DNA from: Acidimicrobiales bacterium
GTDB taxonomy: Bacteria; Actinomycetota; Acidimicrobiia; Acidimicrobiales; Aldehydirespiratoraceae
Direction: 5' to 3'
Assembly (NCBI GenBank): GCA_033344915.1
Contig: JAWPML010000001.1
Coordinates: forward strand, 3,862,263 to 3,926,262
DNA: 64,000 nucleotides
Shown here: piece by piece, positions 14,954 through 21,560 of the stretch
How the letters are laid out: every line of letters starts with the position of its first letter
Numbering within the stretch: position 1 is the stretch's first letter
Made by a program: the position numbers and the translations under genes
The notes under the pieces: generated by a model
Told to the model about the DNA's origin: nothing
What the model saw: the letters and a program-made list of their open reading frames with translations, nothing else
Database searches by the model: none

Positions 14954-15026
14954 GCCCGAGTAGCTCAGTTGGTAGAGCGACGCTCTCGTAAAGCGTAGGT
15001 CAGGAGTTCAATTCTCCTCTCGGGCT
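14954..15026 (+). tRNA. tRNA-Thr (anticodon CGU)
   Basis: A complete cloverleaf of 73 bases: acceptor stem GCCCGAG with CTCGGGC, D-arm GCTC/GAGC, anticodon stem ACGCT/AGCGT with loop CTCGTAA (anticodon CGT at 14987-14989), and T-arm AGGAG/CTCCT with loop TTCAATT. The discriminator base is T and CCA is not encoded. It decodes ACG codons. The sigma-factor gene starts 27 bases downstream. Confidence 0.95.
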
Positions 15027-15052
15027 CGCTCACGACTCCCGCGGAGGAGTTC

Positions 15053-15640
15053 ATGGCTGATCCGGCCGCCTTTGCTGACGATGCGATGCCCCTCATGTCC
15101 TCGCTCTACAGCGCGGCCCTGCGCATGACGCGAAACCCCGCCGACGCGGAGGATCTCGTCCAGGAGACGTATCTCAAGGCGTACCGCGCCTACGAGCGTT
15201 TCGAGGCCGGCACGAACCTGAAGGCCTGGATGTACCGCATCCTGACCAACACCTACATCAACGCCTATCGCAAGAAGCAGCGGCGGCCCGACGAGCAGGA
15301 TCTCGACGACGTCGAGGACCTCTACCTGTACCGCCGCATCGGTGGTCTCGAGGGCGCGACGCTCGGACGCAGCGCCGAGGACGAGCTCATGGACCTCTTC
15401 GGCGAGGCCGAGGTGAAGGAAGCGGTCGAGGACCTCCCGGAGCACTACCGACTCCCCATCCTGCTGGCCGACGTGGAGGGCTTCGCCTACAAGGAGATCG
15501 CCGAGATCCTCGACGTGCCGATCGGCACCGTGATGAGTCGGCTCCATCGGGGAAGAAAGCAGCTGCAGAAGCGGTTGTACGACTTTGCCGAGAAACGACG
15601 GCTCCTCCCGGACCCCACGACATCGGAAGCGACAGCCTGA
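15053..15640 (+). CDS. SigR/SigH-type ECF sigma factor
   Basis: A 195-residue group IV sigma factor. Region 2 contains [20 protein letters not shown] and [20 protein letters not shown]; region 4 contains [19 protein letters not shown] and [15 protein letters not shown]. These match the SigR (Streptomyces) and SigH (mycobacteria) thiol-stress sigma factors (ECF12). GGAGGAG precedes the ATG. The next gene encodes a zinc anti-sigma factor of the RsrA type. A matching promoter box (GGGAAC, 18 bases, GTT) lies just downstream of the pair, supporting the assignment. Confidence 0.9.
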
Positions 15641-15912
15641 TGCAGACTCCCGACCCCGACGACCTCTGTGCCGGTGATCCCGACTGTCAGGCCGCCCTCG
15701 CCGAGATCTACTCGTACCTGGACGACGAGCTCACCATCGAGCGGCGCACCATCATCCGTACCCATCTCGACGCGTGCTCGCCCTGCGGCGATCGCTACAC
15801 GTTCGAGACCGAGCTGCGCCAGGTCATCTCGATGCGTTGCCAGGAATCCGTGCCCGAGGCGCTGAAGCATCGCATCGCCGAGGCGATCCGCCAGGAGATG
15901 CAGGGTCGCTAG
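15640..15912 (+). CDS. RsrA-like zinc anti-sigma factor
   Basis: A 90-residue anti-sigma factor with the ZAS motif H42-x3-C46-x2-C49 (THLDACSPCG) and further cysteines at 10, 16 and 67. RsrA-type proteins hold their sigma factor until disulfide stress oxidises the zinc site and releases it. The ATG overlaps the sigma stop (TGATG), so the two are translationally coupled. Redox sensing is inferred from the motif and gene order. Confidence 0.87.
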   Translation: MQTPDPDDLCAGDPDCQAALAEIYSYLDDELTIERRTIIRTHLDACSPCGDRYTFETELRQVISMRCQESVPEALKHRIAEAIRQEMQGR

Positions 15913-15933: not shown

Positions 15934-15960
15934 GGGAACGAATCGACCCCTGTCGTCGTT
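15934..15960 (+). promoter_or_regulatory. SigR/SigH-type promoter of the microprotein gene
   Basis: GGGAAC (15934-15939) and GTT (15958-15960) are separated by exactly 18 bases, matching the SigR consensus GGAAT-N18-GTT. The GTT ends nine bases before the ATG at 15970, so a transcript from it would be leaderless or nearly so. This is the only promoter-like element in the 57-base gap after the anti-sigma gene. Confidence 0.6.
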
Positions 15961-15969
15961 GCCATAGGC

Positions 15970-16152
15970 ATGCGGGTCCAAGGTGAACGATTCACGAGCA
16001 TCGAGCGCAACCTCCCCACTGCGGCGGACGGCCGGGTCTGTGGCGAGGCGGGCTGTGAGGTCAAGCTGAGCATCTACAACGACCAGGAGTTCTGTGCGCT
16101 CCACGCGCCGATGGTCGTTCCTCGCATGCGGGGCAAAGTCCTGGACGACTAG
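15970..16152 (+). CDS. 60-residue Cys/His microprotein (putative zinc finger)
   Basis: I do not recognise this family. The 60-residue protein has C24-x4-C29-x12-C42-x2-H45, a plausible zinc-binding set, flanked by polar segments (GERFTSIERNLP before, a basic VVPRMRGK after). It follows the SigR/RsrA-like pair and sits behind a SigR-type promoter, so a role in thiol or metal stress is likely. There is no Shine-Dalgarno, consistent with leaderless expression. The large gene at 16176 starts 23 bases after its stop and may be co-transcribed. Confidence 0.65.
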   Translation: MRVQGERFTSIERNLPTAADGRVCGEAGCEVKLSIYNDQEFCALHAPMVVPRMRGKVLDD

Positions 16153-16175: not shown

Positions 16176-19100
16176 ATGCGCACACGCATCCACCGAGCTG
16201 CGTGGTGTCCGGCCGGCACTGTCGCGGCAGCACTGTTCATCGCCGTCATCGGGGTGGGCCTCGCCCCGGGAGCCGGCGCCCAGGACGCCGATCTGCCCGA
16301 GAGCGCGGAGCTCGTCCAGCTTCGGTCCGATCTCGAGGTCCTCGCCTGTCCCGAGTTGGACCTCCCGGATGTCACGCTCAACGAACGTCCGCTGAACATC
16401 CGCGGTGAGCCCGGCGACGGCGTCCTCCTCCCGCCCCGCAGTGTCGTGCTCAAGTGCGACTACGGATCCGACGTCGTCGATCTCGCCGACCGACCGTTCA
16501 TGAACGTGCAGATCCAGGTGGCCACCCGCAGCGACGGGGTCCCGTTCGAGTGCCAGGCGGAACCGACCGAGGATCGCACCAACCCCGACTTCCAGCGGTA
16601 CGGGTTGGGCCAACCCGTCGACAGTGCGGCCATCGTCGTCCAGTACACGGCCGGTCAGGCGTTCCTGGACGCGCATCCGGGCCTGGACGGCGCGATCGAT
16701 GCGGCCTTCACCGCGCTTGCCGAGCAGGTGGCGCCGTTCGCGCTCCTGTGCCAGTACGAGCCGGTCGCGGTCGTCTGCCCGCCGATCGCTGGGTACGGCG
16801 CGGCGAGTGGATCCGAGGCCCGGCTCGAGGACCGGTTGACCACCGGATGCACGTATCAGCACGAGGATCAGGTCAGCTCGGTCGAGATCGTCGTCACCTG
16901 GGCCACCGACCGCAGCTCGGACGACGCGATTCGCCGAGCGTGCGAGGACTTCGGTGAATCGCCCCGCCTGCGGGTCGGTTTCGTCGGCGGCGACGGCGTG
17001 GCGTCGCAGGCGACCTGGCGTTTCATCGGGCCGGAGACGTCGCTCGATTCCGACGCGGTGACCGCGACCGCGAGCGCCATGCGCGCGGAGGTCGCGCCCC
17101 AGGCGACGTCGTGCACCGACACCGGGGTCGAGCCGGTCTGGACCGCGCTTCCGCCCTATCTCGAGGATGCCTTCGCGCCGGATCGGATCGACGCACCACT
17201 GCTCGACGGGGCGGTCGTCAGCCTGTTCGCCGGGGGCGGGGCGGATCTGACCGTTGTCGGCCCGCCGGCCACGACGGATGGGGCGCCCGACAACGACGCC
17301 GCGCCGGTCGCCGGGGACGCCGATGCGGACGCCGCTGCGCCGAGCGCTTCGCCGTCGGCTGCTTCGCGTTGGACACCCATCCTGCGGATCGTCGCCATCG
17401 TCGCGCTGGTTCTCTCGGTGCTCTCGTTGCTGCTGAGCCTGCTGCTCAGCCGGCGGGAGACGCGACTGCGGCCCCGCATGGACGTGTTCCGCATCGGCAT
17501 GGTCGGCGTGGTGGCCGTCGTGTCCATCGTCGTCTTCTCGAGGGGCGCCCCGATCTGGGCCGTCGTGGCCGCGATCGTGATCGGTGGCGGCCTGGGGTGG
17601 CTCCAGGGCCGGAATCTGGAGGTGCGGGTCGCCCGTGGACGCCTGATGGCGACGCGGCCGCCGATCGCCGTCGTCGCGTTCGCGGCCGGTCTCGTGCTCA
17701 CCCAGGTGGCCGGGCTGGCGAACCGCCGCGGCGTGATCGCCCTCGGGATCGCGCTGTCCTTCCTGTCGGCGGCGACGACCGCAGGACTGCTGATCGGACG
17801 GCGGGAGAAGGTGCGGATGGCGCGGGCCAGTGCCACCACGATGGTCCTTCTCGTCCTCGGCACGGTGGCGGTGGTCCCCCTCGTCACGGCCGAACCGGCC
17901 CCCGCCCAGGAGTCCACGGAGGACGTGCCGTGCGGGTCCGACGTACCGGGCGAGCGCTGCGCCGCCCACGAGCATCTGATCGATCTTGTTCCGTGGGAGG
18001 AGATCCGGCTCAACGGCGGATTGCTCTGGACGGAGGGCAAGCCGTGGATCGACATCGCCGTGCCCCGCGCCCTCGACGCCCCGCCCGACCCCGTCGAGCG
18101 CGAGGTCGAGTGGACCTGGGACGGCGTCGACTACGAGGTGACGGAGCGCTTCGCCTTCGGGCCCCGTGACGACGGTCGCTGCTGTTCGGTCGACTACGCC
18201 GGCTCGGGCTCGCGGACGACGGGCGGCGTCGCCACGACGTACGTCGCCGAGGGTCGCCTCGACGACATCGGGGTGCTCGGCGGGTCCGGTGGCGGGGGGA
18301 GCTTCGCGGTCGACAACCAACCCGGCGTCCCGTTCGACGAAGTCGGCGCGTTCGCGGGCGAACCCGAGGGCGCGTGCGGTCGCCTGGTGGCCGGCACCGT
18401 CGGCCAGAGCGAGCGGGGCCAGGCCTCGTTCGCGACCTACACGATCGACGGAGAACCGTTCGACGCAGGATTCAGCGACACCGCCACCGTCCTGACGGCC
18501 CCCTGCGAGATCGAGGGATTCGACCTCGCCGGCGCCCTCGCCCTCGCACCCGAGCTGCCGTCGCGGGAGCAGCGCTCGTCGCCCTGCCCGGCGCGCAGCG
18601 AGCTGGTGCCGGCCCTCGCCGAGGCCTCGAGTGAGCCGGAGGCGGTCAACACGCTCGGGCGGATGTACACCTCCCCGGCCGAGGCCCTGTGCAACGAGGG
18701 CGGCGAGTTCCGTCCGATGCAGTTCGGCACGCCGGGCCCCGGCGGGACCCGATCGGAGTTCGCCTTCCAGTTCACGACACCCGAGACCGACACCGGACTC
18801 GGGTTGACGGGTTTCGCCGACGACTCGACCCTCGCCGGCGTCGCCCGGCCGGCCGATGTCCCGCTCGCGGAGCGGTGCGACGTCAACGAGGTCGGTCAGG
18901 CAGAGCCGATCGAACCCGGTGAGCGCTGCCGGCTGATCACGATGCACAAGGTCGACAACACGGGAAGCTGGATCTGGGTGTTCACCGACAACCAGACCTT
19001 CGACGGGCCCAATGTCACGATCCGGGCCAGCATCGAGTGGGCGACCTACTGGTACACGTGCCACCACTGCTCACCCGAGTCGCCCGAGATCCAGGGCTTT

Positions 19101-21560
19101 CTCTCGCGGTTCCACGACGTCGGCGTCAGCTGGATCGACGGGCAACCGGCCGGGACCGGTGGCGCTCCGACGGGCGTGGACGATCCCGATGAACTCCAGC
19201 GCCAGGCCGAGGCGCTGGGGGTCGATGCGGACCTCCTCGACGCGGTAGTGGACCCCGATGCGGACGACGAGACCCGAGCCGCCGCGATCGCCGCGATCGT
19301 CGGACTGCTCGCCAGCACGGGCATGTTGGGCGCCGCGCTGGCCGAGTCGGGGTTGAGTGCGACCCGGATCGCGGAAGCCTTCCGGCGTGGGGGCATCGGC
19401 GCCCTGAACGACCTGCTCAACCCGACCCCGGAGAACATCCCGCCCGATGGCCTCCTCGACGAGTACGGCGCGCTCCTGCTGCCCAACGACGAGGGCCTGT
19501 ATCCGTGGGTGACCGGCGAGGGCACCGAGTGGCTCGAACGAGCAGAGGTGGAGGAGCGCATCGCCGCGGAGCGGGCGGCGATCGCGGCGCGAGAGGGCCG
19601 ATCGGACGCAATCGCCGACGAGATGGACCGCCGCCACGACACGCTCGGCGACGACGACCTGTTCGGCGACATCCGGTCCCGCATCACCGCCGAGAACGAC
19701 GAGATGATGGCGGAGATCCGCCAGGGATGGCACGAGGTCGACGAGATCCAGCAGAACCTCGACGCCCGACCCGAGGCGTTGGCCCGTCTCGAAGCGGCCC
19801 AGGCAGCCCAGGATCTCGCCAACGAGATGACCGGGTGGGAGGACATCGCGGTCGCGACGTTCGACGGCAGCGTGGAGGATCTCGAGGAGCTCGGCGAGGA
19901 CGTCACCGACATGACCCGTGCGGTGGTCACGGCGGCCGCGGATCCGGAGAACTGGCGGGTGGTCGGTGAGACGTTCGCCGAGAGCGTCTATGACGTCACC
20001 GGCCTTCTTGCCGGCGGGCAGTTCGGCGACGGCGCGCAGAGCATCGTCGCTGGTGTGGAAGTGAGCGCCGATGTTGCCGCGGCCCTGGGTGTCGCCTTCG
20101 CGCGCGACCCGCTCGGCACCGTCGCGATGTTGACGCCCATCCAGGACTTCAAGAACGCCGTCGACGGCGACCTGCGCCTCAGCGAGCGGCTCGGTTCGCT
20201 CAGCGTCGGACTGTTGGACGTCGCCGGCACGCTCTCCGGCATGGGCCTGGCGACCGCAGCCGACGACATGGTGGCGGCGGCACGCGCCGCCGAGGTGGCC
20301 GCGCAGACCGCCCGCGACGCCGCCCGGGCGGCCGAAGCAGCAGCCGAAGCGCGCCGCGTTGCCGACGGGCTCACCGACGCCGGCTTCGGGGTCGCCCGCG
20401 TCGGTGACGAGGCGCTGGACGCGGCGTTGCTGCCGAAGCGCGACGAGATCGTCGACGCGATCAGCGCGGCCCAGGCGCGCGCGGCCCGCGACGGATCCGC
20501 CATCGACGAGCTCGATCTGCGGGAGATGCCCGAGGTCCGGGCCATCTTCCAGGGCGGCGGCATGAACGACATGGGTCGCTTGGAGGCGACTGGCGGCCTG
20601 AGCGAGGAGATGGCACAGGCGGTCGTGCGGATGCACGACAACCTGACCGACGCGGCGGTGCGGACCGGGACGGGCGACGCGATCGCGGACATGGAGCGAC
20701 TGACCGGGTACAAGCCCCGGCAGGTTCTCGTCGGCGACAGTGGCTCGGTGGGTACGGCTCGGTCGGTCATGACCGACGCCGACCGCACCGTCGTCACCGT
20801 CTTCGACGATGCCGACATCGACCTCTACATCAGCCGCAACGGCGGCAGCCGCGCCGAAGCGGCGGAGGCCCTCCAGGAGCAGTTCAAGGTCTTCCATGAA
20901 CGCAACGTCGAGCTGGCCCTGAACGACCCGACCGATCCGGCGGTCGTCCTGGCTCGTGAGAACGGCATGACCCTCGGCGAGGCCGTCGACCACCTCGACG
21001 CCCTCGGGCAGGACGATCCGGTGGCCGCGGCCGCGCGTCTGACCGCCGAGCAGATGGACACCGCCTCGTACGCGGGCTTCGGTTCGATGACCCAGAGCGA
21101 CGCGTACCCCGCGGGTTTCACCCGGTCCCGCATGGAGGTCCAGGGTTCGTCGACCGTGTACACGGTCGACGCCGGAGGTGGGGTCACGAGCTACGACACG
21201 TCCGGCCAGGCGATCATCGACCAGCACGAGCTGGAGCGCCTGCGTCACACCGGCGAGCTCCTCGACATCGACCCGACGCGGATCCCGGCGAGCGAGCTGC
21301 AACCGCTCCTGCAACAGCAGGTCGACGCGATCGGGCGGTACGACGACGCCAAGTCGGTCGCCAAGGCACTCGACCGGGTGCAGTACATCGCCGGACGGGT
21401 CGACAATCCGATGCCCGATTCGGCCGTCGTCGACGCCGCCATCGCCATCCGCGCAAACCCGCGGGCCACGGTCGATGTCCTCGCCGAGTTGGGGATGTCG
21501 GAGGCGGAGTTCGTCGCGGAGGCGAAGAACGTGGTCGCGGGGTACGGAAGCGGCCTCTGA
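16176..21560 (+). CDS. Very large exported/membrane protein of unknown function (1794 aa)
   Basis: Not recognised as a whole. A signal peptide (about 1-35, ending in GAGA) leads into an external domain with several cysteines (to about 370). An Ala/Asp-rich linker precedes about six membrane helices at 398-572; the last resembles a second signal sequence (ending in EPAPAQES). A second Cys-containing domain follows (about 573-1010), then an Asp/Ala-rich helical and coiled-coil region (about 1030-1420) and a C-terminal domain (about 1430-1794). AAGGGGG precedes the ATG. The order of external, membrane and long helical parts recalls polymorphic secreted effectors, but no toxin motif is certain and no immunity-like gene follows. 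Confidence 0.8.
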   Translation: MRTRIHRAAWCPAGTVAAALFIAVIGVGLAPGAGAQDADLPESAELVQLRSDLEVLACPELDLPDVTLNERPLNIRGEPGDGVLLPPRSVVLKCDYGSDVVDLADRPFMNVQIQVATRSDGVPFECQAEPTEDRTNPDFQRYGLGQPVDSAAIVVQYTAGQAFLDAHPGLDGAIDAAFTALAEQVAPFALLCQYEPVAVVCPPIAGYGAASGSEARLEDRLTTGCTYQHEDQVSSVEIVVTWATDRSSDDAIRRACEDFGESPRLRVGFVGGDGVASQATWRFIGPETSLDSDAVTATASAMRAEVAPQATSCTDTGVEPVWTALPPYLEDAFAPDRIDAPLLDGAVVSLFAGGGADLTVVGPPATTDGAPDNDAAPVAGDADADAAAPSASPSAASRWTPILRIVAIVALVLSVLSLLLSLLLSRRETRLRPRMDVFRIGMVGVVAVVSIVVFSRGAPIWAVVAAIVIGGGLGWLQGRNLEVRVARGRLMATRPPIAVVAFAAGLVLTQVAGLANRRGVIALGIALSFLSAATTAGLLIGRREKVRMARASATTMVLLVLGTVAVVPLVTAEPAPAQESTEDVPCGSDVPGERCAAHEHLIDLVPWEEIRLNGGLLWTEGKPWIDIAVPRALDAPPDPVEREVEWTWDGVDYEVTERFAFGPRDDGRCCSVDYAGSGSRTTGGVATTYVAEGRLDDIGVLGGSGGGGSFAVDNQPGVPFDEVGAFAGEPEGACGRLVAGTVGQSERGQASFATYTIDGEPFDAGFSDTATVLTAPCEIEGFDLAGALALAPELPSREQRSSPCPARSELVPALAEASSEPEAVNTLGRMYTSPAEALCNEGGEFRPMQFGTPGPGGTRSEFAFQFTTPETDTGLGLTGFADDSTLAGVARPADVPLAERCDVNEVGQAEPIEPGERCRLITMHKVDNTGSWIWVFTDNQTFDGPNVTIRASIEWATYWYTCHHCSPESPEIQGFLSRFHDVGVSWIDGQPAGTGGAPTGVDDPDELQRQAEALGVDADLLDAVVDPDADDETRAAAIAAIVGLLASTGMLGAALAESGLSATRIAEAFRRGGIGALNDLLNPTPENIPPDGLLDEYGALLLPNDEGLYPWVTGEGTEWLERAEVEERIAAERAAIAAREGRSDAIADEMDRRHDTLGDDDLFGDIRSRITAENDEMMAEIRQGWHEVDEIQQNLDARPEALARLEAAQAAQDLANEMTGWEDIAVATFDGSVEDLEELGEDVTDMTRAVVTAAADPENWRVVGETFAESVYDVTGLLAGGQFGDGAQSIVAGVEVSADVAAALGVAFARDPLGTVAMLTPIQDFKNAVDGDLRLSERLGSLSVGLLDVAGTLSGMGLATAADDMVAAARAAEVAAQTARDAARAAEAAAEARRVADGLTDAGFGVARVGDEALDAALLPKRDEIVDAISAAQARAARDGSAIDELDLREMPEVRAIFQGGGMNDMGRLEATGGLSEEMAQAVVRMHDNLTDAAVRTGTGDAIADMERLTGYKPRQVLVGDSGSVGTARSVMTDADRTVVTVFDDADIDLYISRNGGSRAEAAEALQEQFKVFHERNVELALNDPTDPAVVLARENGMTLGEAVDHLDALGQDDPVAAAARLTAEQMDTASYAGFGSMTQSDAYPAGFTRSRMEVQGSSTVYTVDAGGGVTSYDTSGQAIIDQHELERLRHTGELLDIDPTRIPASELQPLLQQQVDAIGRYDDAKSVAKALDRVQYIAGRVDNPMPDSAVVDAAIAIRANPRATVDVLAELGMSEAEFVAEAKNVVAGYGSGL

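Follow-up and report, generated by a model that had tools for sequence, protein, structure and literature searches.

A conserved SigR-type promoter before a small Cys/His protein gene adjoining sigR and rsrA in Acidimicrobiales

Thiol-stress switches built from a sigma factor and a zinc-binding anti-sigma factor have been well studied as SigR/RsrA in Streptomyces and as SigH/RshA in Mycobacterium and Corynebacterium, and the locus described here shares with them both the sigma/zinc anti-sigma pair and a promoter of the GGAAY...GTT type, but shows a different wiring. In M. tuberculosis the SigH consensus is GGAAYR-N17-GTT, with 17 bases after GGAAYR in 19 of 25 promoters and 18 in four (PMC4803200), and another form of the promoter is given as GGGAAT(G/C)-16-(C/G)GTTG (PMC3489674). 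The SigR targets described in Streptomyces include genes for thioredoxin, mycothiol synthesis and methionine sulfoxide reductase (PMC5472188). As for the sigma gene itself, Streptomyces sigR is under autoregulation through sigRp2 (PMC5472188), and the same is said of M. tuberculosis sigH (PMC3489674); the sigH promoters mapped in Corynebacterium resemble the SigA type, and there it is rshA that has a SigH promoter (PMC3489674).

The window, by which we mean the whole stretch of 64,000 nucleotides that was analysed, carries on its forward strand a sigR-like gene (15053-15640) encoding an ECF sigma factor of 195 aa, which matches Pfam Sigma70_r2 and Sigma70_r4_2 and has TIGR02947 as its top NCBIfam match (247.3 bits, just below the cut-off of 251.55). 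The next gene, rsrA (15640-15912, forward strand), encodes a zinc-binding anti-sigma factor of 90 aa with H-x3-C-x2-C at residue 42, scoring 78.5 bits against TIGR03988 and thus above the 62.5 cut-off. Judged by these profile matches, the pair is a SigR-like sigma factor with an RsrA-type anti-sigma factor. Beyond rsrA, and on the same strand, lies a SigR-type promoter motif (15934-15960) made up of GGGAAC (15934-15939), an 18-base spacer and GTT (15958-15960). Nine bases further on, the ATG at 15970 opens a frame for a 60-residue protein (15970-16152, forward strand), which contains LSxYN and PRxRG motifs and whose C24, C29, C42 and H45 are its sole Cys and His residues. The gene is present in a single copy in its own genome, and a frame of 1794 aa (16176-21560) begins 23 nt past its stop. 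On the other side, a forward-strand tRNA-Thr (CGT) gene predicted by ARAGORN (14954-15027) stands 25 nt upstream of sigR. Such a tRNA gene was found at 9/9 tested loci of the window's own family (L001-L022), at 0/6 tested loci of L023-L029 and at 14 of the 30 tested loci overall; at L058 and L085 it is more than 1 kb from sigR. There may be readthrough from the tRNA transcript into sigR.

The motif matches the published SigH/SigR consensus: GGGAAC contains the -35 element GGAAY, and the -10 GTT stands at N18 from GGAAY, as it does in GGAAYR-N17-GTT, a likeness from which SigR dependence would be predicted. A single match proves nothing by itself, because about one is expected per 64 kb (GGGAAY-N17-19-GTT occurs once in the window, against 1.03 expected by chance), and the case for a promoter therefore rests on comparison. 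We compared relatives of the small gene whose start codons were set by a rule blind to the motif. This sample of loci is not random, 64 of them coming from one C-terminal peptide pattern and the others being the best-scoring matches of genome searches; 146 of 147 had a usable start (118 of them linked to sigR/rsrA), and reduction at 80% identity left 63, of which 43 are linked and 20 unlinked, the latter status being partly due to contig ends.

Among the 43 linked non-redundant loci, GGAAY-N17-19-GTT lies 8-13 nt before the start in 31, compared with 0.04 in mononucleotide shuffles, and in 26 of those 31 the distance from GTT to the start is exactly 9 nt. Their spacers (N18 in 20, N19 in nine, N17 in two) resemble those of the measured M. 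tuberculosis SigH set (PMC4803200). The remaining 12 linked loci have no exact motif near the start, three of them having it 38-79 nt upstream and nine having none within 150 nt, and no motif was found at the inspected linked loci of the phylum families f85, f79 and f113. Unlinked non-redundant loci have the motif at the near position (8-13 nt) in 4/20 (shuffle 0.005) and anywhere within 150 nt upstream in 9/20 (shuffle 0.16). At seven loci of the same genus, GGAAC and GTT are identical in 7/7, while the spacer columns average 4.5/7. The GGGAAC-N18-GTT arrangement with its GTT nine bases before the ATG, pointed out by a sequence-only reading of this DNA, is thus as that reading described it, and is a conserved feature of linked relatives. 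We also considered a promoter unrelated to the small gene and rejected it, since 0/20 sigR-rsrA loci that lack the gene show the motif in the 500 nt that follow rsrA; these 20 controls were chosen by hand from the 136 genomes that have RsrA but not the small gene. Several gene-less loci (L231-L234, L238, L239, L241, L247-L249) have another small frame after rsrA, with a membrane-like W-x-(F/W/Y)-W segment that, judged by eye, is apparently conserved.

No Shine-Dalgarno sequence precedes the ATG in the window. With GTT ending nine bases before the ATG, the forward-strand transcript is likely to start at 15967-15970, that is, at the ATG or no more than 3 nt from it. Across the same 63 non-redundant loci, a Shine-Dalgarno-like AGGA, GGAG or GAGG was present at 6 of the 35 with the motif at 8-13 nt, compared with 24 of the 28 others (Fisher p 4e-8). 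Leaderless translation is therefore likely, given how rarely a Shine-Dalgarno sequence accompanies a motif at the start.

The same layout recurs elsewhere in the genome, where GGGAAY-N18-GTT has 45 matches, as against 3 for the reversed pattern. At 10 of the 45 sites an ATG or GTG that opens a frame of 50 codons or more lies 8-10 nt after GTT, and for ATG alone there are 7 at offsets 8-10 compared with 28 spread over the 110 offsets 11-120. The genes that follow such sites at short range encode thioredoxin (+10), MshA (+10; 389.9 bits, short of its 462.5 cut-off), a pyridine-nucleotide disulfide reductase (+9), a DUF427 protein (+9), a Crp-like regulator (+8), a glyoxalase-fold protein (+9) and a DM13 protein (+8); at longer distances come MsrA (+63), cystathionine beta-synthase (+99) and a rhodanese/MoeB protein (+40). 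As with the SigR targets of Streptomyces, genes for thioredoxin, mycothiol synthesis and methionine sulfoxide reductase thus follow motif sites here (PMC5472188). In M. tuberculosis 3 of 25 newly mapped SigH starts fall within 5 bp of the start codon (PMC4803200), to be compared with the several start codons found here 8-10 nt after GTT. Not all 45 sites are promoters, because most (35/45) lack a start codon 8-10 nt after GTT and many fall within long open frames. To judge from motif and start positions, the genome has a SigR-like regulon with the small gene as one of its predicted leaderless members, and it possibly holds a leaderless thiol-stress regulon that includes thioredoxin and MshA. 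The earlier description of the small gene as leaderless accordingly stands as regards its layout, given the motif distance and the lack of a Shine-Dalgarno sequence, but leaderlessness as a trait special to this gene is rejected, as other SigR-type genes of the genome share it.

The frame itself behaves as a coding sequence. Among eight close relatives (28 pairs) dN/dS has a median of 0.098 and ranges from 0.03 to 0.20, and both C-x4-C-x12-C-x2-H and LSxYN are kept in 63/63 non-redundant relatives, with RxRG in 60/63. An alignment of 59 sequences has 15 invariant columns, among them those of the four presumed ligands and of L33, S34, Y36, N37, P51, R52, R54 and G55. A chance frame with a chance promoter would find some encouragement in a motif match that is expected about once per 64 kb, but a dN/dS near 0.1, a ligand spacing retained in 63/63 and a conserved promoter make that account barely credible, and we reject it. 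On these grounds we take it that the 60-codon frame is a gene. The prediction of a C24-x4-C29-x12-C42-x2-H45 protein whose frame and Cys/His pattern should persist beside sigR/rsrA in relatives was thereby borne out when such relatives were searched for. Conservation of the ligands suggests that the protein binds zinc. The protein has a net charge of -1, and its linked relatives vary between -3 and +10, so a single nucleic-acid target for all of them is not implied. The relative at L230 ends its pattern in C-x2-C, not C-x2-H, and its frame contains another Cys cluster as well.

Searches did not place the protein in a described family. It did not score above the cut-off of any Pfam, NCBIfam or PHROGs family: the best Pfam match was CxC6 (E 0.1, 13.3 bits, cut-off 27.5), and NCBIfam and PHROGs gave no match up to E 1. 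The plasmid and phage collections likewise yielded no match. The AlphaFold2 model has a mean pLDDT of 78.2 and a pTM of 0.50, with residues 21-40 at 92-94; it is weak outside residues 21-50 and shows no helix of four or more residues and no strand of three or more. Foldseek found no match among solved folds (3 listed, best E 6.3). The family profile gave eight matches to solved structures, the best being 9h0m (E 0.00039) and the next having E 0.013 or worse. The 9h0m match covers 23 residues (chain E, 320-342, of a molecule named PIT54 protein), and is probably a chance likeness of Cys patterns. Profile matches of about 32 residues to TAZ1 of CBP/p300 were not significant (E 0.28-8.8). TAZ1 is a helical zinc domain, unlike the helix-poor model of the small protein.

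Two kinds of described small zinc protein bear comparison. ZAS anti-sigma factors (RsrA, zf-HC2) are likewise small, have a zinc-ligand motif and are encoded next door, but theirs is H-x3-C-x2-C and that of the small protein C-x4-C-x12-C-x2-H; we tried the assignment and rejected it, there being no zf-HC2 or TIGR03988 match. The other is Ruc (Rv0991c) of M. tuberculosis, which holds zinc, is induced by SigH and becomes a chaperone once oxidised (PMC7448276; PMC4803200), and which by analogy raises the idea of a redox chaperone whose zinc would be ejected by oxidation, turning it into a holdase. Zinc and induction by a SigR-type sigma factor, both described for Ruc, would be common to the two proteins. 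Ruc has four zinc-binding Cys in a zinc-ribbon arrangement and needs a disordered, variable, hydrophilic C-terminal tail (PMC7448276), whereas the small protein has three Cys and one His within 60 residues and ends in the conserved PRxRG and a few further residues. These differences make a Ruc-type chaperone quite unlikely. We set Ruc apart on its published description, and would call it the closest functional parallel that we met and not a family label for the small protein.

Relatives are widespread, occurring in 30/61 near genomes, 212/395 genomes of the class and 79/396 of the phylum. A further 64 loci come from named records of Acidimicrobiia and their subgroups and of Actinomycetes/Actinobacteria, together with one Actinomyces, one Acidiferrimicrobium, one Ferrimicrobium and one Acidobacteriota MAG; the record of Acidiferrimicrobium sp. 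IK (L081) is not labelled as a MAG, and the exact promoter motif was not found at its locus. Many families of Acidimicrobiales share the order sigR-rsrA-gene, and the linkage is also present in the phylum families f79, f85 and f113, as detected with an RsrA profile built here. Where genomes have several copies, one of three examined is linked in G081, G477, G597 and G607, and none of the two or three examined is linked in G529, G516, G526, G545 and G584 (three of four copies were examined for G529, G545 and G597, and three of six for G607).

Some relatives have neighbours of another kind. Heavy-metal P-type ATPases, the metal of which is probably copper to judge by inference, adjoin relatives at L148 (5901-8379), L150, L151 and L164, and the relative at L152 adjoins a FecCD transporter and an M3 peptidase. 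M3 peptidase genes are also found at L151 and L164 and a MerR regulator at L151, and at L148 and L150 the palindrome GTGAATATATTCAC lies upstream of the relative's gene. The ATPases and the FecCD transporter would suit a buffer or shuttle for metal, either zinc released by RsrA or copper. Against such a role, which we think very unlikely, each protein has one presumed site, and the conserved non-ligand residues point to a docking partner. A plain zinc store, among the functions that had been suggested for the protein, is similarly unlikely when LSxYN is kept in 63/63 and RxRG in 60/63.

A closer involvement in the switch was the other suggestion. The protein could be a feedback part that determines how strong the response is or how long it lasts, either by binding to SigR or RsrA or by giving zinc or electrons back to oxidised RsrA. 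Recurrent sigR-rsrA-gene linkage across families, and the one linked copy among those examined in each of four multi-copy genomes, are consistent with this, as is the wiring of the locus. In the window the exact SigR motif belongs to the small gene and not to sigR; among 57 linked loci with a whole sigR (not de-duplicated), the motif was found within 300 nt before sigR at two and inside sigR-rsrA at none. This contrasts with Streptomyces, where sigR is autoregulated (PMC5472188), and a feedback role is conceivable because it is the small gene, not sigR, that has the exact motif. However, missing sigma autoregulation already has a parallel in the SigA-like mapped sigH promoters of Corynebacterium (PMC3489674), and the co-occurrence of gene and RsrA is loose. 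Over the class, 162 genomes have the gene and RsrA, 50 the gene only, 136 RsrA only and 47 neither, with RsrA scored by TIGR03988 at E 1e-5, which includes weak anti-sigma relatives (129/395 genomes exceed the cut-off). Thus 136/298 RsrA-bearing genomes are without the gene, and 50/212 gene-bearing genomes are without detected RsrA. Association of the two is absent over the class (p 0.64) and clear only without family f46 (p 7e-8), a family of genomes of about 1 Mb that supplies 41 of the 50 gene-only genomes; in each of six f46 genomes tested there is one sigma relative, with 26-30% identity to SigR. The unlinked copies, and those relatives that adjoin heavy-metal ATPases, point to a wider use. 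We therefore give the feedback role a low, though not negligible, probability. As an obligate third component that resets RsrA, the protein does not fit these counts. As far as sequence goes, the sequence-only reading was correct on both the promoter and the leaderless layout, and comparison with relatives makes its observation stronger than the window alone could; the function that it proposed was drawn too narrowly.

On balance, we favour the small gene as a direct leaderless SigR target encoding a zinc-knuckle protein that would dock on a cell machine as a stress output. In the proposed sequence of events, thiol oxidation would release SigR from RsrA, SigR-RNA polymerase would initiate at GGGAAC-N18-GTT, and a transcript beginning at or next to the ATG would give the 60-residue protein. 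C24, C29, C42 and H45 would most likely coordinate a single zinc ion as a small knuckle, and the LSxYN and PRxRG segments would dock on a conserved machine, which might be the ribosome, RNA polymerase or a proteostasis factor, with the protein acting there as a stress output. The promoter, frame, ligand conservation, linkage and lack of a Shine-Dalgarno sequence are features of the DNA itself, and to them the output reading adds SigR dependence, the transcript start, zinc, a partner and an effector role, all of which we infer. An output protein is more likely than a required switch part, because the presence of the gene does not track RsrA strictly, because some relatives occur in several copies and others lie next to heavy-metal ATPases, and because unlinked copies have a SigR-type motif: among 18 further unlinked copies it occurs within 200 nt upstream of five (three being orthologues), a count made without shuffle control. 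The common theme would be a zinc-knuckle-like small protein raised by thiol or metal stress.

A sigma gene without the motif has its precedent in Corynebacterium; the novelty here lies in a motif that belongs to a third gene. The exact motif stands here before the small gene, unlike in the studied systems, the Corynebacterium one being before rshA (PMC3489674). Among the literature matches listed, titles and abstracts mention no third gene of this kind, in a coverage that takes in part of the subscription papers on the Streptomyces regulon. The locus thus adds a conserved, apparently leaderless SigR-type gene whose protein has no Pfam, NCBIfam or PHROGs family. Since the family is widespread and is kept in genomes of about 1 Mb, the small protein is probably useful. 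A bolder interpretation, which we regard as unlikely, is that in this branch of the Actinomycetota the autoregulatory arm has moved from sigR to the third gene, whose protein would tune the switch via RsrA, SigR or RNA polymerase, and that this protein is one of an undescribed family spread across the phylum, which may also be used in metal stress.
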